Assembly (NCBI RefSeq): GCF_022662195.1
Contig: NZ_JAKMCS010000001.1
Location: 372,001 to 436,000, forward strand
Origin: Aestuariivivens insulae
Lineage (GTDB): Bacteria; Bacteroidota; Bacteroidia; Flavobacteriales; Flavobacteriaceae
DNA: 64,000 nucleotides
Reading direction: 5' to 3'
Position numbers and translations under genes: made by a program. The notes under the pieces were generated by a model. The model did not search any database. It was not told the DNA's origin and worked only from the letters and a program-made list of their open reading frames with translations. Shown here in pieces: positions 10,232 through 17,325 of the stretch (position 1 is its first letter; the number at the start of each line of letters is the position of its first letter).

Positions 10232-10396
10232 ATGAAAACCAAGACCAATTCTTTCCCAAACTCACTTAATGGTTTGATTAAAAATGTATTGGATTACTAT
10301 GTGTACTGTGTTGTAATTAATAGCAACTATAAAAAAAGCCTTAGTGAGAATGAAGCCTATAAGCTAGCTCAAGAAAATCATTTAAATGCTGCCTGA
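10232..10396 (+). CDS. small hypothetical protein, 54 residues
   Basis: An open frame starting ATGAAAACC, encoding MKTKTNSFPNSLNGL and ending ENHLNAA. It begins 168 bp from the divergent HTH gene and is followed by a 207-bp gap. The amino-acid make-up is ordinary (Asn, Lys, Tyr, Leu) and codon use resembles neighbouring genes, but no family is recognised and no clear ribosome-binding site is seen. The protein would be soluble with one helical stretch. Moderate confidence that it is real. Confidence 0.45.
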   Translation: MKTKTNSFPNSLNGLIKNVLDYYVYCVVINSNYKKSLSENEAYKLAQENHLNAA

Positions 10397-10603: not shown

Positions 10604-11746
10604 ATGGATTTTGTCTCTATTGTTAATTTTTTACTTATTGCTGGTGTTATTCAAGGTTTTGGTTTTAACCTTGTAACCTTGTTTGTAAAGAAGAAATTAG
10701 ATAAAACTATCATATTCCTAAATCTAACGGTTTTAGCCATCACTTTGAATAATTTACAAAGATGGCTTATTGATAATGGTTACACCTCTGATTTGTTTCT
10801 TCTTAAAAATTTACTTGTACCCTGGTATTTATTTATACTACCAATGTTTTATGCATTTACAATCTATTTTGTTAGAGTTCAAGACAAAGTAAACAATTTT
10901 ATTAAGCCTACATTAGTGCTTTTTATTTTAGAGATGGTTATCAGGCTATGTTTAATTTCTTATGTGTATTATGAAGTTCCAGATAGAGACACAACCATAA
11001 TCCATAACTTTACGCTGATAGAAAACACATTTAATCTCTTATATAGCTTATTCTTTTTTGGAAATGCATGTTTGCTTATTTTTAGACGGCATTATTTGTT
11101 AGATAATATTTTGCCTTATGATGATTTAAATTGGATTAAGTGGATTATTCGTTTAGGGGTAATCACAATTGGGTTTTGGGCTATAGCAGTAGCAATTCAA
11201 TTGTTAACCGATAATGATGGAGCCTATAAATATTTAAATCTTAGTTCATCTATACTTCTTTATTGGTTAGGTTATCAAGGGTTTTATAAGTATAATGTAG
11301 TACGTGATCGAATTTCGTTAAGAGGCTCCATAAAGTCCAATCGTGTTGAAATATCACCCAGAGATTATACTAAAACTTCTGTGCATAAAGAAGATTTTTA
11401 TAACCAAAAACATCAGGAAGATTTTAATAAAATTAAAGATTACATTATAAAAAACAAATTGTATTTAGATCCTTTATTGAGTATGGAATCCCTGGCTTCA
11501 GATTTAGGTATGAGCAAGAGCTATTTTTCCAAACTTATAAACTCCTATAGCGAATATAATTTTTCGGATTATATTAACTCGTTACGGGTAGCTCAAGCTA
11601 AAAAGTTTTTATCGAACAATGAGTTTAGTGAGTATACCATCGTGGCTATAGGTTTGGAATGTGGGTTCAATTCTAAATCAACGTTTTATTCTGCATTTAA
11701 AAAGTTTACTTCAGAAACACCAACTAGTTATAGGGATCAGTTTTAA
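10604..11746 (+). CDS. membrane-embedded AraC-family transcriptional regulator
   Basis: Residues about 1-235 contain several hydrophobic segments, probably seven transmembrane helices, and residues about 280-380 form an AraC/XylS double helix-turn-helix: LSMESLASDLGMSKSYFSKLIN, YSEYNFSDYINSLRVAQAKKFL, then VAIGLECGFNSKSTFYSAFKKFT and TPTSYRDQF. This layout (membrane sensor plus AraC output) is common in Bacteroidota. It precedes, in the same direction, the DUF6134/CPBP/SDR operon by 116 bp. A motif repeated before that operon and before the next one (11776 and 15061) is a plausible target. Its signal is unknown. Confidence 0.88.
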   Translation: MDFVSIVNFLLIAGVIQGFGFNLVTLFVKKKLDKTIIFLNLTVLAITLNNLQRWLIDNGYTSDLFLLKNLLVPWYLFILPMFYAFTIYFVRVQDKVNNFIKPTLVLFILEMVIRLCLISYVYYEVPDRDTTIIHNFTLIENTFNLLYSLFFFGNACLLIFRRHYLLDNILPYDDLNWIKWIIRLGVITIGFWAIAVAIQLLTDNDGAYKYLNLSSSILLYWLGYQGFYKYNVVRDRISLRGSIKSNRVEISPRDYTKTSVHKEDFYNQKHQEDFNKIKDYIIKNKLYLDPLLSMESLASDLGMSKSYFSKLINSYSEYNFSDYINSLRVAQAKKFLSNNEFSEYTIVAIGLECGFNSKSTFYSAFKKFTSETPTSYRDQF

Positions 11747-11775
11747 TTGATACCGTCCGAGATTATCGTTGGACA

Positions 11776-11836
11776 TCCTAATTTTTACTTCTTGGAATAT
11801 CTTGGATATTAGTACGGTTTAGTGCCTATAATTTTA
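11776..11836 (+). promoter_or_regulatory. promoter with putative AraC-type operator, site A
   Basis: TCCTAA (11776) is followed after 20 bases by TTGGATATT (11802), then 4 bases, then CGGTTTAGTGC (11815-11825) and a weak -7 box TAATTTTA (11829-11836). TTGGATATT is preceded by a near copy TTGGAATAT, giving a direct repeat as AraC proteins often bind. The same three boxes with the same 26-base offset between the first two occur before the operon at 15150. The region ends 26 bp before the 11863 start. Confidence 0.6.
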
Positions 11837-11862
11837 CAACAGTAACTCAAAAACTGTTCGTC

Positions 11863-12549
11863 ATGATTCCGGCATTAATATTATTTCTCATCAAAAAATT
11901 TAAAGGAAGGCCTATTGCATTTTTGAAAACGAATGCCTTAAAAACATTAGTAATCAAAATATTGGTTTTAGTGGTAGTTGTTCTTTTAGTGTCTTCCTTT
12001 ATTGTAATCGATTTTAATAATTCAAAGATCTATAATGTTGTTAAAAATGAAAAGGTTATTGGTGTTATTAAGATTAATAAACATACTTCTGAAAGCTCCA
12101 TTGTTTATACTCTTTCAAGCACTATTAAAGTGAAACTTTTATTGAAGTTTGACATCGTTGGTAAAGAAAAAGCGATTTATAAAAATGGCGTATTGACTTT
12201 TTCTTCGGTATATAGGACACTTAACAATAAGGTTAAAGTAAACCATAATATAGTGCTAAATAACAACCAATATCAGGTTCAATCTTCCAATGACATCAAA
12301 TATTTAGACTATAAAACAATTACCCATAACCTTGTGATGCTTTATTTTCAAGAGCCTATAGGTGTTACCTCTATTTTTTGTGATAACCAGAAGGAAATGG
12401 TGCCTGTAAAGGCTTTATCGGAGGGTAAATATAAAGTTGAAATTTCGAACGACAAGTATAATGTGTTCCATTATAAAAATGGCAAATGCATTAAAATTGA
12501 AGCTGTAAGTAAGCTTTTTAGTGTAATCTTAATACCCGCAGAGTCATGA
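11863..12549 (+). CDS. DUF6134-like membrane-anchored protein
   Basis: A 228-residue protein with one strong hydrophobic segment (about residues 27-50, rich in Val/Leu) followed by an extracytoplasmic beta-rich domain starting VVKNEKVIGVIKINK. This resembles DUF6134 proteins, small periplasmic domains of unknown function in Bacteroidota; the match is from memory and moderate. It is the first gene of a four-gene operon; its stop overlaps the next start (ATGA). The start codon is not certain, since the region before the hydrophobic segment is short and basic. Confidence 0.6.
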   Translation: MIPALILFLIKKFKGRPIAFLKTNALKTLVIKILVLVVVVLLVSSFIVIDFNNSKIYNVVKNEKVIGVIKINKHTSESSIVYTLSSTIKVKLLLKFDIVGKEKAIYKNGVLTFSSVYRTLNNKVKVNHNIVLNNNQYQVQSSNDIKYLDYKTITHNLVMLYFQEPIGVTSIFCDNQKEMVPVKALSEGKYKVEISNDKYNVFHYKNGKCIKIEAVSKLFSVILIPAES

Positions 12550-13223
12550 ATGCTATAATTACAAATTGGGTTTTAATTGCAGTTTGTTTCATGACTTATT
12601 TTGTTGTGAGTATGGTATACAAAAAACTAGGTGTTTATAATTTGCATAGCGCTTTGTTAACAACAAATGGTCTTAGGCTTTTAAACCTAAAACATGTATT
12701 GGGGATTGTTCTATTTGGGGTGCTTTCATACATGATGATCCCAGAATTACAATACTTGGTAACCGTTATTGAAGTTCCCAAAATACATGTGCTCTTATTG
12801 TTTGTTTTTATCATTTTGCTGTCTGCTAATATATCGTATTTAAGTGTTAAAAAGCAATGTGGGGAGCAGGAGACCGTAAATGTAGATTACAGTTTTGCAC
12901 ATGCATGGTTCTATTTTTCAATTAGATTTTTCTTTTTGTTGGGGTATGAGTTTTTCTTTAGGGGCATATTGCTGTTTAAACTTTTAGAATATACAACATT
13001 ACCACTAGCCATTGTATATAATACCATGTTGTATGTGGTTATTCACAGCTTCGATTCTAAAAAGGAAATTTTAGGGGCTATACCATTTGGAATTGTTTTA
13101 TGCCTGTTTGCCTATTATACCAATAGTGTATGGTATGCCTTTTTAATTCATTTAGCCTTATCGGCTGTATATGAAATTTCAATTTTCTATCATCTAACCT
13201 TAAAAAACAAAATTGTATCATGA
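12546..13223 (+). CDS. CPBP-like intramembrane protease family protein
   Basis: The 225-residue polytopic membrane protein has about six to seven hydrophobic segments. It resembles the CPBP (CAAX protease/bacteriocin-processing, ABI) family: YEFFFRGILLF matches the first motif EExxxR with only one of the two glutamates, followed by VVIHSF and by PFGIVLCLFAYYTNSVWYAFLIH for the histidine-bearing later motifs. The changed first motif makes activity uncertain. It is coupled by ATGA overlaps to genes on both sides. Possible roles include processing of a lipidated or membrane substrate, which is inference. Confidence 0.65.
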   Translation: MNAIITNWVLIAVCFMTYFVVSMVYKKLGVYNLHSALLTTNGLRLLNLKHVLGIVLFGVLSYMMIPELQYLVTVIEVPKIHVLLLFVFIILLSANISYLSVKKQCGEQETVNVDYSFAHAWFYFSIRFFFLLGYEFFFRGILLFKLLEYTTLPLAIVYNTMLYVVIHSFDSKKEILGAIPFGIVLCLFAYYTNSVWYAFLIHLALSAVYEISIFYHLTLKNKIVS

Positions 13224-14206
13224 AAGTTTTAGTAACAGGAGCCACAGGGTATGTGGGGCATCAATTAGCCATAAAACTTGCCGAAAGCAATTACCAAGTA
13301 GTGGCATTAGTAAGGGACTTGTATTCCAAAAGGATTCCCTATCACAAAAATATAATCCCGGTAAAGGGTGATGTGCGTAATTTAAATTCGGTTTTAAAAG
13401 CCATGGAAGGTTGTGGTTATGTATTTCATACCGCAGCATATACAAATTTAAAGAGTAAGAGAATAGATGGTTTTTATAATACGAATGTTTTAGGCACTAA
13501 AAATGTCTTAGAGGCATCTTTACAACATAAGATAAAAAGGGTCGTCTACACAAGTACGCTTTCGGTTTTTGGGCCTTCATACAAAGACATTCCAATAACA
13601 GAAGACCAGCCCAGATTGGTTGCTTATGCCAACGATTATGAGCTCACTAAGAGCATGTCCCAAGAAATCGTTTCAGAATATGTTAGAAAGGGACTGTCTT
13701 GTGTTGTACTTAATTTATCTCGGGTTTATGGGCCTGGATTGGCAACATTTTCTAATGGAGTTAATAAGTTGATTGCAAAAATCGTAAAAAACCAATTGTT
13801 GTTGGTGCCTTCAAAATTAAGTATTTCTGCTAATTATGTCTTTATAGATGATGTTGTGAATGCTCATCTTTTGGCTATGTCAAAAAAAGAATTAGAAGGT
13901 AATTTTATCATTGGCGGAGAAAATATAAGCTACAAAACACTTTTTCATACCATTAGGAAGTTGGCTAAGAGCCACATAAAAATTGTAACGCTTAATTATA
14001 GATTTATCAGGGGTAGCTTATCCTTTCTAAATGTTGTGAACTCAATTTTTGGCTTCCAATCTGGAATTACGCCAAAGGTATTAGATGCTTTATTTCAAAA
14101 CAGAATGGCTACTTCAAAACGTGCTGTTATGGCATTAGATTATAAGATTACGCCTTTTGAATTAGGTATATGGAAAACGATCAATCATTTAAAACCTTCA
14201 TTATGA
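13220..14206 (+). CDS. NAD-dependent epimerase/dehydratase (extended SDR)
   Basis: A 328-residue extended short-chain dehydrogenase. The Rossmann glycine motif is GATGYVG (residues 7-13), the acidic end of the second strand region is followed by KGDVRN, and the catalytic Ser/Thr (STLSVFG) and Tyr-x-x-x-Lys (YELTK) follow. Proteins of this subgroup resemble dihydroflavonol reductase and 3-beta-hydroxysteroid dehydrogenase rather than nucleotide-sugar epimerases. The substrate is not known. The gene overlaps its neighbours by four bases at both ends, so it is likely translated with the CPBP-like protein and the next SDR. Confidence 0.85.
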   Translation: MKVLVTGATGYVGHQLAIKLAESNYQVVALVRDLYSKRIPYHKNIIPVKGDVRNLNSVLKAMEGCGYVFHTAAYTNLKSKRIDGFYNTNVLGTKNVLEASLQHKIKRVVYTSTLSVFGPSYKDIPITEDQPRLVAYANDYELTKSMSQEIVSEYVRKGLSCVVLNLSRVYGPGLATFSNGVNKLIAKIVKNQLLLVPSKLSISANYVFIDDVVNAHLLAMSKKELEGNFIIGGENISYKTLFHTIRKLAKSHIKIVTLNYRFIRGSLSFLNVVNSIFGFQSGITPKVLDALFQNRMATSKRAVMALDYKITPFELGIWKTINHLKPSL

Positions 14207-15012
14207 AAACATATGCTTTAATAACAGGAGCCAGTCAAGGTTTAGGTAAGGCCTTGGCGTTAGAATGTGCCAATAGGGAAATGAATCTATTGTTATTGGC
14301 CTTGCCGAACTCGGGTTTGCCACAATTATCACATTTCATAAAGCAACATATGGGTGTTGATGTACATCATCTTGAATTGGACCTAAGTGTTGTTGAGAAT
14401 TATTACCTCATAGCAGATTATGTGCGAAACAATAATCTTAAAATTCAATATCTAATCAACAATGCGGGGGTATTAAGTAGAGGCTTTTTTGATGCTCTGG
14501 ACGATCGTTTCGTTTTAAAGCAAATAGCGGTAAATATTACTGCTCCAACTATGCTTATTAAGCTGTTGTTGCCCTATATGAAATCTACTAATAATGCAGC
14601 TATTTTAAACATAAGCAGTATGGCCAGTTTTTTTGCATTGCCCAAAAAACAAGTCTATGGTGCAACAAAGGCTTATTTAACATCCTTTTCAAAAAGTTTG
14701 GCCAAAGAATTAAAGAAGGACAATATTGCTATAACGATTATCTGTCCTGGAGGGTTAAATACAACAACAAGGCTGTGCTATCAAAATCGTATTTTAAGTT
14801 GGATTCCACGTAAGTCCGTCTTGAATCCAGAAGACGCTGCTGGAATTGCCATTAATGCCATGATGAAAAGAAGGGAATTGATTGTTCCCGGATTTATTAA
14901 TAAATGCTTATTGGTTTTGGATAAGTTATTGCCCAGATTTATAAAAGATAGCTTAACAAGCCAAGAGATCAACAAATTTCCTGCTGGCAAATTACAAAAG
15001 CTGTCAAGCTAG
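14203..15012 (+). CDS. SDR-family NAD(P)-dependent oxidoreductase
   Basis: A classical short-chain dehydrogenase of 269 residues when started at the ATG that overlaps the previous stop (ATGA at 14203). An earlier in-frame ATG at 14170 would add 11 residues encoded inside the previous gene and is not favoured. Motifs: TGASQGLG for the cofactor, NNAGV, the catalytic Ser in NISSMASF and YGATKAY with Tyr and Lys. The C-terminal part contains a basic, hydrophobic stretch near the end (GFINKCLLVLDKLLPRF). Many relatives act on long-chain ketones; the substrate here is unknown. Last gene of the operon. Confidence 0.88.
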   Translation: MKTYALITGASQGLGKALALECANREMNLLLLALPNSGLPQLSHFIKQHMGVDVHHLELDLSVVENYYLIADYVRNNNLKIQYLINNAGVLSRGFFDALDDRFVLKQIAVNITAPTMLIKLLLPYMKSTNNAAILNISSMASFFALPKKQVYGATKAYLTSFSKSLAKELKKDNIAITIICPGGLNTTTRLCYQNRILSWIPRKSVLNPEDAAGIAINAMMKRRELIVPGFINKCLLVLDKLLPRFIKDSLTSQEINKFPAGKLQKLSS

Positions 15013-15060
15013 TATTACGGCAAATTATTACATAAATGTTATTCTGAGGTAATTAACTAG

Positions 15061-15121
15061 TCCTAAATCATCCACCAACCATATTATTGGATATTGGAGT
15101 GCGGTTTAGTGCTGATATTTG
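15061..15121 (+). promoter_or_regulatory. promoter with putative AraC-type operator, site B
   Basis: TCCTAA (15061), TTGGATATT (15087, again 26 bases after the first box) and CGGTTTAGTGC (15102-15112) repeat the arrangement of site A. The spacer between the last two boxes is six bases here and four there. A near-consensus -7 box GATATTTG (15114-15121) stands 23 bases after the TTG of the second box. The first gene of the downstream operon starts at 15150. Confidence 0.6.
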
Positions 15122-15149: not shown

Positions 15150-15584
15150 ATGAAATCTTTAAGGATTATATCAAATAAGAATAAAAGATGCCCGCAATGG
15201 ATTTTTGCTATGCTTTGGTTCATGTTATCTGTGGGGTTTTTAAGTGCTCAAACTAGCAGGTTGGATGCATCAATGTTTTCAGAGCATCAAAGGATGGTTG
15301 ATCTTAATTTTAAAACGCATGTTACTTCGCAATTAAGATTTTTGGTAGCGCCCCAATTTGGCGGGCTGTTCGATGCTCAATTTAAATATGTTGAAGGTAT
15401 TTTAAATTTAAGAAAGCAGTATAGTGATTTTGATTTGGCCTTGACGCTAGGGACCCAATATAGTCTAATAAAAAGGCTAGTGTTTCATGTGGTGTATAAT
15501 GTGGGTTTATTAAAGTTGGAACATGATAGTTCAAATAAAATACCTGGTGCTTACATGAGAGCAGGTTTAACGTATAATTTTTAA
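15150..15584 (+). CDS. secreted hypothetical protein, small outer-membrane-like
   Basis: The 144-residue protein has a basic N terminus and hydrophobic segment ending in FLSAQ, a likely signal peptide cleaved near residue 34. The rest alternates in beta-strand fashion (QLRFLVAPQFGG, ALTLGTQYSLIK, LVFHVVYNVGLL) and ends in YNF, an aromatic terminus often seen in outer membrane barrels. At about 110 mature residues it is too short for a full barrel unless it oligomerises. No family recognised. An out-of-frame 14-codon ORF (15134-15178) overlaps the start and might affect translation. Confidence 0.65.
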   Translation: MKSLRIISNKNKRCPQWIFAMLWFMLSVGFLSAQTSRLDASMFSEHQRMVDLNFKTHVTSQLRFLVAPQFGGLFDAQFKYVEGILNLRKQYSDFDLALTLGTQYSLIKRLVFHVVYNVGLLKLEHDSSNKIPGAYMRAGLTYNF

Positions 15585-15595
15585 ACTAAATAATT

Positions 15596-16378
15596 ATGAG
15601 AACATTATTTAAAATTGTTATAACTGCTTATGTTGCAATAATAGTACAGTCTTGTGGCTCACATCGGGTATATACATCTGGGAGCTACGGTTCTTTAAAA
15701 TCCTACACCGAAAAGCAACACTATGTGGATAAGAAAACTTCTAAGACATATGTGTCTGGCGATGTTAGTTTTGGACGGCATATGCAGGATGGAGGATCAT
15801 TTGATGATACAAAAACCATAGCCTCATTAAATGTACATCGTAATATAACAGGACGTTCTTATAATTACTATTATGGATTAGGGGGCGGTATTGGAAGTTA
15901 CCATTTTAAAGAAGGTTATAATGATATTGTTGATCAAAATGAAAAGTTGAATTTTTACAACATAAATTTAAAAGCAGGTATTAATTATGCCTTAACCACA
16001 ACTAAAATAGATTATAGATTTATTGGTCTAGAATTATTGTATACTAATGAGTTTGGAGCTTACCAAGATAAATTAGAAGCGCTTTCAAAGTTGATGGATG
16101 AGGATTTAATTATTGTAAACCAAAAATCCATATTTACCTATAATTTTTATTCTGAATATGTTTTTAAATTTTCTACAGAGGAGGCACTCTCACTTGGTTT
16201 TTACATTGGAGGACTATTTAACAAAATGAACAATGATGATTATGAATATGGATATGACACAGAGTTTAATGGCTTTACAGTTGGTTTGAGGCTAAAAAAG
16301 TATACGCTTCACTTCATCCATGAAACAGGTCAAAATGATATTCGGTCAACGAAATTAGGTTTAACCTATAACTTATAA
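15596..16378 (+). CDS. predicted lipoprotein with beta-barrel-like pattern
   Basis: The 260-residue product begins with a signal peptide ending VQSC (Cys20), a good lipobox, so it should be a lipoprotein. The mature part is rich in Tyr, Gly and alternating strands (GLGGGIGSYHF, YRFIGLELLYTNEFG, LSLGFYIGGLF) and ends LGLTYNL, a pattern close to small outer membrane beta-barrels. Combining a lipobox with barrel-like strands is unusual but known in this phylum. It follows the preceding gene by 11 bp. Function unknown. Confidence 0.65.
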   Translation: MRTLFKIVITAYVAIIVQSCGSHRVYTSGSYGSLKSYTEKQHYVDKKTSKTYVSGDVSFGRHMQDGGSFDDTKTIASLNVHRNITGRSYNYYYGLGGGIGSYHFKEGYNDIVDQNEKLNFYNINLKAGINYALTTTKIDYRFIGLELLYTNEFGAYQDKLEALSKLMDEDLIIVNQKSIFTYNFYSEYVFKFSTEEALSLGFYIGGLFNKMNNDDYEYGYDTEFNGFTVGLRLKKYTLHFIHETGQNDIRSTKLGLTYNL

Positions 16379-16402: not shown

Positions 16403-16912
16403 ATGAAAACAATACGGTTATGTATGTTGGTCTTAGTGCTATTTTTTGGGGTTTTATGGAGCCAAAGTATATACTCTCAAGACGATGCCAATACTAAAAG
16501 TATGTTCGTAAGAGTGTACGATTTAGGAGGGGAAAAGATAGGAAAGGGTGATGTGGGTTTTGTTAATGATAGTGTCATTCAAGTCATAAAAAATGACAAA
16601 CCACAACAATTCAAGGTAAATAACATTGGGTTTATTAAAACAAAGCGTTCAGGAGGACACCATGTATTAATAGGAGCGGGCATTGGTTTGGTATCTGGTG
16701 CAGTTATTGGGGCCTCGGTTACAGATTCAAGTGGGCCTGATTCATTTTTTCCTTGGACAAAAACAGATGGAGCAATGGTAGGGGGGCTATTAGGGGCTGC
16801 TGGGGGAGCTGCAATAGGGGGCATTTCTACTGTGGCCAAAAATTCAGTAATCTATACCATTAATGGAGATGTTGGTAAATGGAAAATATTTATATCGGAT
16901 ATGAAACTTTAA
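16403..16912 (+). CDS. secreted protein with glycine-zipper segments
   Basis: A 169-residue protein with a signal peptide (hydrophobic to about residue 20, then QSIYSQDD). The middle has a beta-rich region (VRVYDLGGEKIGKGDVGFVNDSVIQV). Two glycine-rich hydrophobic stretches follow: GAGIGLVSGAVIGA (about 92-105) and MVGGLLGAAGGAAIGG (about 130-145). These resemble glycine-zipper segments of envelope proteins that insert in membranes or oligomerise. Third gene of the envelope operon; 11 bp before the next. Confidence 0.6.
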   Translation: MKTIRLCMLVLVLFFGVLWSQSIYSQDDANTKSMFVRVYDLGGEKIGKGDVGFVNDSVIQVIKNDKPQQFKVNNIGFIKTKRSGGHHVLIGAGIGLVSGAVIGASVTDSSGPDSFFPWTKTDGAMVGGLLGAAGGAAIGGISTVAKNSVIYTINGDVGKWKIFISDMKL

Positions 16913-16923
16913 CAACTTTAATT

Positions 16924-17325
16924 ATGAAAACAATTAAACAACAAACCTGTCTATCCGTTATATTATTATCAATTTTGATACTCTTTCAAAGTTGTACAGT
17001 TTACAGATCGAAATCCTCTACATTGGAACAAGTATCCAATACAGCTATTAAATCTAAAGTTGAAACTCATAATGGAGTCAGTATTAAATTTAAGTATATA
17101 GTTGTTGAAAATGGCAATTACTATGGCGTAAGAAAGGTTAAGGGAAAAATGGAAAAAATGAAATTGTCTGAAGATTATATTAAGAGTGTTAAACAAAAAG
17201 ATAAAACAATGTCAACTGTTCTAACAATTGCACTTCCTGTAGCTATAATCGCGGCAGTGGGGTTAATATTTCAAGATGCCTTTAAATGGAAACATGGAGC
17301 GTCCAAAGTAGAATGGAATTTTTGA
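16924..17325 (+). CDS. small predicted lipoprotein
   Basis: Started at the ATG at 16924 (MKTIKQQT), the 133-residue protein has a clear lipoprotein signal ending in FQSC (Cys24). An upstream in-frame ATG at 16879 lies inside the previous gene and would put 15 residues before the signal peptide. The mature part has a beta-rich core (VSIKFKYIVVENGNYYGVRKVKGK), a hydrophobic segment (TVLTIALPVAIIAAVGLIF, about 98-116) and a basic tail. Last gene before a strong terminator. No family recognised. Confidence 0.6.
   Translation: MKTIKQQTCLSVILLSILILFQSCTVYRSKSSTLEQVSNTAIKSKVETHNGVSIKFKYIVVENGNYYGVRKVKGKMEKMKLSEDYIKSVKQKDKTMSTVLTIALPVAIIAAVGLIFQDAFKWKHGASKVEWNF

Follow-up and report, generated by a model that had tools for sequence, protein, structure and literature searches.

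A 35-bp inverted repeat before two operons of Aestuariivivens insulae, probable operator of the seven-helix AraC-type regulator encoded upstream

Two operons in the genome of Aestuariivivens insulae are preceded by the same short sequences, and the gene directly upstream of them encodes an AraC-type protein with seven predicted membrane helices (7TM-AraC). What is the conserved unit in these sequences, and which protein reads it? The region was analyzed in a stretch of 64,000 nucleotides (nt), to be referred to as the window, of contig NZ_JAKMCS010000001.1 (assembly GCF_022662195.1; genome of 4.23 Mb in 33 contigs). The similarity of the two promoters, as a whole, is confirmed. The shared unit is most probably an operator of 7TM-AraC, which would act as a one-component activator of genes of envelope and lipid type.

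The conserved element

The initial annotation described three boxes in the same order before both operons. All the strings are present where it placed them, with TCCTAA at 11776 and 15061, TTGGATATT at 11802 and 15087, and CGGTTTAGTGC at 11815 and 15102. The starts of TCCTAA and TTGGATATT are 26 base pairs (bp) apart in both copies, and TTGGATATT is separated from CGGTTTAGTGC by 4 nt in copy 1 and 6 nt in copy 2. A genome search for TTGGATATT-N2..10-CGGTTTAGTGC finds exactly two matches, both in the window, and the reversed pattern has none; three other genomes of the genus have no match either. The division into three boxes is not supported. The conserved unit is a symmetric inverted repeat of 35 bp, TRTCCnRAwTnnT-N9-AnnAwTYnGGAYA, located at 11774-11808 and 15059-15093. 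TCCTAA is a real part of this unit, but only one part of a 13-bp arm, and CGGTTTAGTGC is not conserved as a box.

The dyad analysis gives arms of 13 bp each and a gap of 9 bp. The arms are at 11774-11786 and 11796-11808 in copy 1 (plus strand; modelled as a 36-bp module at 11775-11810) and at 15059-15071 and 15081-15093 in copy 2 (plus strand; module at 15060-15095). Self-complementarity over 52 sites, including those of the window but not L124 (one of the 23 new sites described below), has a sharp peak at module position 17, with a score of 674 as compared to 286 for the next position; TCC and GGA contribute to this score by construction, whereas the pairs 0/34, 6/28, 9/25 and 12/22 do not. 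Each arm carries two conserved patches roughly 9 bp apart, TCC and T-C at 12-13, and these paired patches would suit the two helix-turn-helix units of one AraC domain.

Both copies were scored with a profile (R1) of 28 sites from relatives, with the window sites excluded. Also left out were a hit within a coding sequence (L045 11471), copies on the reverse strand and repeated copies of one place (L059, L060). The two copies are ranked first and second in the genome (27.2 and 24.3 bits, E 2.6e-5 and 2.1e-4); the third match is at E 0.005 and the next at 0.38, and the E-values of this and the later profile R2 are rough. This ranking by a profile made from relatives only shows that the repetition exceeds chance, and the preference of the initial annotation for binding sites over a recent duplication is supported. 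A recent copying of one promoter, by duplication or gene conversion, would account for CGGTTTAGTGC, which is common to both copies and is found without mismatch nowhere else in the genome. On the other hand, both sites have separate orthologues in three congeners, with a spacer and a -7 box particular to each, and the first two boxes enclose 20 nt that are different in the two copies. Duplication of the whole promoter is thereby already contradicted, a conversion confined to the 11-mer could still be accommodated, and the explanation overall is very improbable.

The 11-mer itself (11815-11825 and 15102-15112, plus strand) lies in the promoter spacer, 5-15 nt past the module end in copy 1 and 7-17 nt in copy 2. 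It was rejected as a binding site. Its best matches in 51 other sites are at shuffled expectation (best 3 mismatches, once), and its position with respect to the other parts shifts by 2 bp between the copies, so it is considered as spacer. No conservation of CGGTTTAGTGC was found in the alignments with congeners. The spacer on the araC side in one congener (G001) is CGATTTAGAGA, with 3 mismatches to CGGTTTAGTGC, and the 11-mer is thus partly inherited in that one promoter. Both promoters of A. insulae share all 11 letters.

A second, tighter inverted pair, GTCC/GGAC, is located directly before copy 1. This upstream extension (GTCCGAGATTATCGTTGGAC, 11755-11774, plus strand) starts 8 nt past the araC stop codon. 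In relatives, the conserved stretch after araC reads GTCCGArATTATCGTTGGACATCC..., followed by GGAY 25 nt past the final TCC. The 24-mer GTCCGAAATTATCGTTGGACATCC has 1 mismatch at window copy 1 and 0-3 mismatches 3' of araC in 15 of the 23 loci from relatives. The long form with this extra pair precedes both operons in three congeners; before window copy 2 only a decayed trace is retained (approximately 15041-15059, plus strand), as seen in the alignment with these three congeners, which keep it intact. The module proper, as RTCC-N25-GGAY in a regular-expression scan, is found at both window sites, before operon 2 in several relatives, and in Kordia.

The closeness of the extension to the araC stop codon, and the possible pairing of GTCC with GGAC, could also be expected of an element that acts as RNA, such as a leader, attenuator or terminator of araC. 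There is no Rfam match at the gathering score, however, and folding is no better than that of shuffled sequences (z -0.63 and 0.70), and the RNA element was rejected on these grounds. Moreover, the module precedes the -7 box, and no conserved hairpin was predicted in the leader of operon 1 in 15 sequences. An RNA element has next to no probability.

Promoter geometry

Both modules are followed at the same offset by a -7-like box, TAATTTTA at 11829-11836 and GATATTTG at 15114-15121 (both plus strand), which starts 19 nt past the end of the module. The second box does not vary among the four genomes of the genus that were compared. Primary-sigma promoters of Flavobacterium psychrophilum have TAnnTTTG as their -7 consensus (PMC9723704). 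The gap between the 36-bp module and the box TAnnTTTg is 18 nt, and therefore the right arm covers the -33 region. From TTG to the octamer, 24 nt are counted in both copies, one more than the initial annotation had given.

The same geometry was observed at other sites. There were 63 rows of R1 matches, 25 of which were examined; 3 of these were training sites, and the other 22 together with a third site of A. insulae make up 23 new sites, selected by R1 without promoter information. TAnnTTT is found at +19 in 15 of them (binomial p 1e-24, which is too small as some of the sites are near-copies of each other) and in 14 of the 28 training sites. At least four of its five letters are kept at this position in 20 of the 23. 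In addition, an ATG is located 43-55 nt past the module in 11 of the 23, in agreement with the gene starts there; the two start codons in the window are 53 and 55 nt past the module. The edge of the element is therefore at a fixed distance from a core element of the promoter, as in AraC activators whose operator lies over the -35/-33 region. Such sites precede genes of envelope type in marine Flavobacteriaceae.

The overlap of the right arm with the -33 region could also place a protein where it blocks RNA polymerase. The module would then be a repressor operator, occupied by the AraC protein until a signal releases it. The fixed 18-nt gap to the -7 box, in contrast, is what an activator that touches the polymerase would need, and AraC-family proteins are mostly activators. 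Repression is a rather unlikely alternative to activation.

Association of the sites with AraC genes

The AraC protein is found in relatives that include Aestuariivivens, Hyunsoonleella, Algibacter, Tamlana and Flaviramulus. In 16 of the 23 loci from relatives the DUF6134 gene follows araC, and in 15 the CPBP, epimerase and short-chain dehydrogenase (SDR) genes are behind it. Profile R1 was run against 57 chosen genomes, made up of 37 with an AraC orthologue and the first 20 listed without one. At E≤0.02 it has matches in 24 of the 37 and in none of the 20.

A longer profile (R2, 66 columns) was built from 30 sites, 23 of the 28 R1 sites and 7 new ones, with the sites of A. insulae excluded; the 5 R1 sites that were dropped had no clear box at +19. 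R2 finds three sites in the A. insulae genome (E 2.4e-11, 7.7e-6 and 1.4e-4; the next match is at 0.064). The initial annotation had named scatter across the genome without a link to AraC as evidence against its proposal; instead, two of the three sites are beside the AraC gene. The third (24.3 bits in R2) is below a stricter line of 25 bits and is supported by synteny and by its box at +19.

Among 349 genomes of the family, 38 have an R2 match at E≤1e-3. They include 26 of the 53 AraC-positive genomes as compared to 12 of the 296 AraC-negative ones (Fisher p 8e-16); AraC presence was scored at E≤1e-40 with at most five candidates per genome, so that some AraC genes may be missed. At 25 bits or more the numbers are 19 of 53 and 4 of 296 (p 7e-14; hand-sorted table). 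A same-strand site is located within 1.5 kb downstream of 25 of the 59 AraC genes. Its presence follows the identity of the protein to that in the window, with 16 of 16 at 60% or above, 6 of 21 at 40-59% and 3 of 22 below 40%. Fifteen of the 16 sites in the first group are 29-103 bp from the gene, and the other, behind a tandem copy, is at 1206 bp. Nine of these 16 were in training and 7 were not, and 11 of the 22 genomes with an adjacent site gave no training site. Together with the profile ranking, this co-occurrence and adjacency support the earlier suggestion that the elements precede two operons and that the AraC protein is their natural binder.

Tandem 7TM-AraC genes were observed in L043 (8001-10297) and in L053 and L055 (8001-10319). 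In Algibacter onchidii, one region contains two AraC loci (L039, L048), with a site after each.

The gene order could also be inherited, and the site could belong to another regulator of the same genes, of AraC type or a response regulator. The R2 sites in the 12 AraC-negative genomes and the distal sites far from the AraC gene point in this direction. The module is positioned directly 3' of araC, however, even where DUF6134 is not next to it (L040, L048, Kordia L050, L052, L054 and L056; Kordia L051, where no module is seen directly downstream of araC, is an exception). Moreover, 4 of the 12 exceptional genomes (G014, G132, G175 and G290) have the site 14-315 bp downstream of another AraC-type gene, whose product can be aligned to the AraC protein of the window only over the DNA-binding domain, with 42-49% identity. 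The site thus travels with the DNA-binding domain, and this is the best evidence here for the reader of the site. A different regulator is unlikely.

Several observations weigh against 7TM-AraC as the reader of these sites, or reduce the independence of the evidence for it. The regular expression required TCC and GGA and restricted the three positions after GGA, which makes their invariance a matter of construction; the other columns were free. Training sites had been supplied by 12 of the 24 R1-positive genomes and by 11 of the 26 genomes with both AraC and an R2 site, and R2 was built from sites with a recognizable box at +19. No R2 site at E≤1e-3 is found in 27 of the 53 AraC-positive genomes, nearly all of them with more distant proteins. 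Only 9 of the 43 AraC genes below 60% identity have an adjacent site, so either the link is confined to close orthologues or the operator changes along with the protein. In 8 of the 12 exceptional genomes there is no adjacent AraC gene among the matches at E≤1e-15. R1 matches at E≤1 within 1 kb before araC are absent from the 23 loci of relatives, except for Kordia L050 (7783), and as a result autoregulation gives the link no support.

R2 also has matches outside the family, at E 1.8e-5 to 8.4e-4 in 14 genomes, in a scan of 196 genomes of the order that took in A. insulae and other members of the family. Eleven of the 14 are 0.6-Mb genomes of one genus. The matches cover part of the model, none reaches 25 bits, and they are probably due to chance in AT-rich DNA; E-values between 1e-3 and 1e-5 are therefore not safe alone.

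The initial annotation had also expected the motif in relatives that keep the gene order. This is seen for most of the 16 that keep araC-DUF6134, with the R1 module at E≤1 in 14 and at E≤0.01 in 12, although 11 of the 14 are training sites. Two Christiangramia loci (L053 and L055) keep araC-DUF6134 and have no R1 module between the genes; a related GTCC..GGAC stretch with 7 mismatches is found there.

The regulator and its predicted regulon

The regulator (10604-11746, plus strand) has 380 residues, with seven predicted helices (residues 3-245), a linker and an AraC-type DNA-binding domain (about 268-378). Pfam matches are HTH_18 (E 4.7e-18, residues 297-378) and HTH_AraC (E 4.5e-12), and solved AraC domains match the DNA-binding part both by sequence and by fold. 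The protein has the C-terminal double helix-turn-helix of the AraC/XylS family. Outside the AraC domain there is no Pfam match at E≤0.001, and no kinase or receiver domain was found. The AlphaFold 2 (AF2) model, based on 26 orthologues and paralogues (pLDDT 80.2, pTM 0.63), shows residues 3-245 as seven long helices, followed by a loose linker and then the DNA-binding domain. When the N-terminal part was modelled by itself, from 34 rows, pLDDT was 86.9 and pTM 0.85. The loops on the presumed inner side contain 3, 2 and 2 Lys and Arg residues and those on the outer side 1, 1 and 0, which places the C-terminus inside. As in one-component membrane regulators with a ToxR/CadC-like layout, a membrane segment and a DNA-binding domain are predicted in one chain here.

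An open reading frame (ORF) for 54 residues is located just 5' of the AraC gene (10232-10396, plus strand). Similar ORFs of 41-43 residues (..D.YIY.VL..KK.KS..) are found at about the same place in 3 of the 23 relatives with a loose filter (L035 7837, L036 7828 and L043 7834). The product is possibly a small partner protein.

We infer that the regulator binds the inverted repeat as an activator. Its C-terminal AraC domains, as a dimer or as two domains, would dock on the 35-bp repeat, and the seven-helix part would hold the regulator at the inner membrane during docking. The right arm would replace the -33 element and contact RNA polymerase at a fixed distance from the -7 box. A primary-sigma promoter would be activated in this way, with the -7 box after the fixed 18-nt gap.

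Operon 1 contains four genes, all on the plus strand, for a DUF6134 protein (11863-12549; Pfam PF19630, E 2.3e-24), a CPBP/Rce1-like membrane protease (12546-13223; PF02517, E 1.6e-8), an NAD-dependent epimerase or 3beta-HSD-like protein (13220-14206; the best NCBIfam model, HpnA, is below cut-off) and an SDR (14203-15012; nearest to mycolate reductase, below the curated cut-off). Given the lipid flavour of this operon, a signal from membrane lipids or the envelope may reasonably be guessed at, but no more. Operon 2, also on the plus strand, encodes a small protein with a signal-like N-terminus, possibly a β-barrel (15150-15584; weak NCBIfam outer membrane barrel match, E 0.008, below cut-off), a putative lipoprotein (15596-16378; lipobox-like QSCGS by eye, no Pfam family), a glycine-zipper-like protein with a signal-like N-terminus (16403-16912; Pfam Gly-zipper models below cut-off) and a small putative lipoprotein (16924-17325; QSCTVYR), whose homologues in relatives are near araC or near sites.

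The third site of A. insulae, an R2 match, is located before a TonB receptor gene beside glmS (L082 4754..1944, minus strand, G000:C30). It has the same place between glmS and the TonB receptor gene in two congeners (L123 and L131), where the module is better conserved than its flanks. The predicted regulon in this genome thus has three promoters, those of DUF6134-CPBP-epimerase-SDR, of the lipoprotein/barrel operon 2, and of the TonB receptor.

Nineteen proteins encoded at or near such sites were compared with Pfam, and 12 have no match at E≤0.01. The remaining 7 are three TonB receptors, a weak barrel, DUF6252, TPR repeats and a weak DUF6635. Many of the proteins associated with sites start with signal-like or lipobox-like stretches, as judged by eye. 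Small putative lipoproteins with C-[TSV]-[VI]-Y recur beside sites in several genomes (window 16924-17325, L122 3303-3689, L124 4542-4901 and L130 3133-3558); for the three that were tested, which do not include L124, there is no Pfam family above cut-off.

One congener (G002) has 14 R2 matches, some of them before near-identical copies of one gene. Two such promoter-gene copies bearing the site (L117 and L118) are on different contigs. From these copies and the 14 matches, the regulon seems to grow by copying.

A broader reading, which we consider possible and put forward tentatively, is that a receptor of seven-transmembrane (7TM) type, resembling G protein-coupled receptors (GPCRs) and fused to an AraC domain, reads an extracytoplasmic or membrane-borne signal and, without a kinase or second protein, activates a small envelope and lipid regulon by binding the long inverted repeat from the membrane. 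The geometry would be rigid enough for the regulon to be read from sequence in many Flavobacteriaceae, and the regulon would expand by copying of promoter-gene units. In the openly licensed PMC papers that were searched, no description of a DNA site or regulon of membrane-embedded AraC proteins was found. The predicted operator, regulon and promoter geometry are combined here with the 7TM sensor in one testable unit, through which the signal of a bacterial 7TM protein could be studied. Uncharacterized putative lipoproteins and an epimerase/SDR operon are tied to one predicted control circuit.

The membrane part (residues 1-245) is predicted to have a GPCR-like shape. The 50 chains listed for the 7TM model, 49 GPCRs and one designed GPCR-like protein, have Z scores of 14.8-16.6 and rmsd values of 3.4-4.4 over 207-237 residues; for helical bundles, Z scores below about 13 can reflect no more than a shared arrangement. 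The best Foldseek match of this part is at E 0.022, with all matches above 0.02. The likeness to GPCRs is one of predicted shape only, and kinship is not claimed.

The combination of an AraC-type activator and an inverted-repeat operator, as predicted here, is shared with RhaR and RhaS of E. coli. The operator of E. coli RhaR is an inverted repeat of two 17-bp half sites with a 17-bp spacer (PMC3870299). The element described here differs in its 13-bp arms and 9-bp gap, as compared to half sites of 17 bp about 17 bp apart for RhaR/RhaS, in its regulator, which is predicted to be embedded in the membrane, and in its promoter, which is one of Bacteroidota. Bacteroides RhaR and similar soluble AraC regulators are from the same phylum, have an AraC-type domain, and their motif also comes from comparative genomics; the inverted repeat is a difference from these systems. 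The closest relatives of the DNA-binding domain with a solved structure include hybrid two-component proteins and YesN-like response regulators with AraC outputs (3lsg and 6swi, and the hybrid two-component protein 12aw). Unlike in those systems, signal and output would be in one chain here, in which no kinase or receiver domain was found. In receptors of the 7TMR-DISM type, seven helices are directly joined to a cytoplasmic output module, and the seven predicted helices of the window protein are likewise joined straight to such a module. These bacterial 7TM receptors are named in PMC1592074. The window protein, with no Pfam match at E≤0.001 outside its AraC domain, differs from them in its output, which is the AraC DNA-binding domain.

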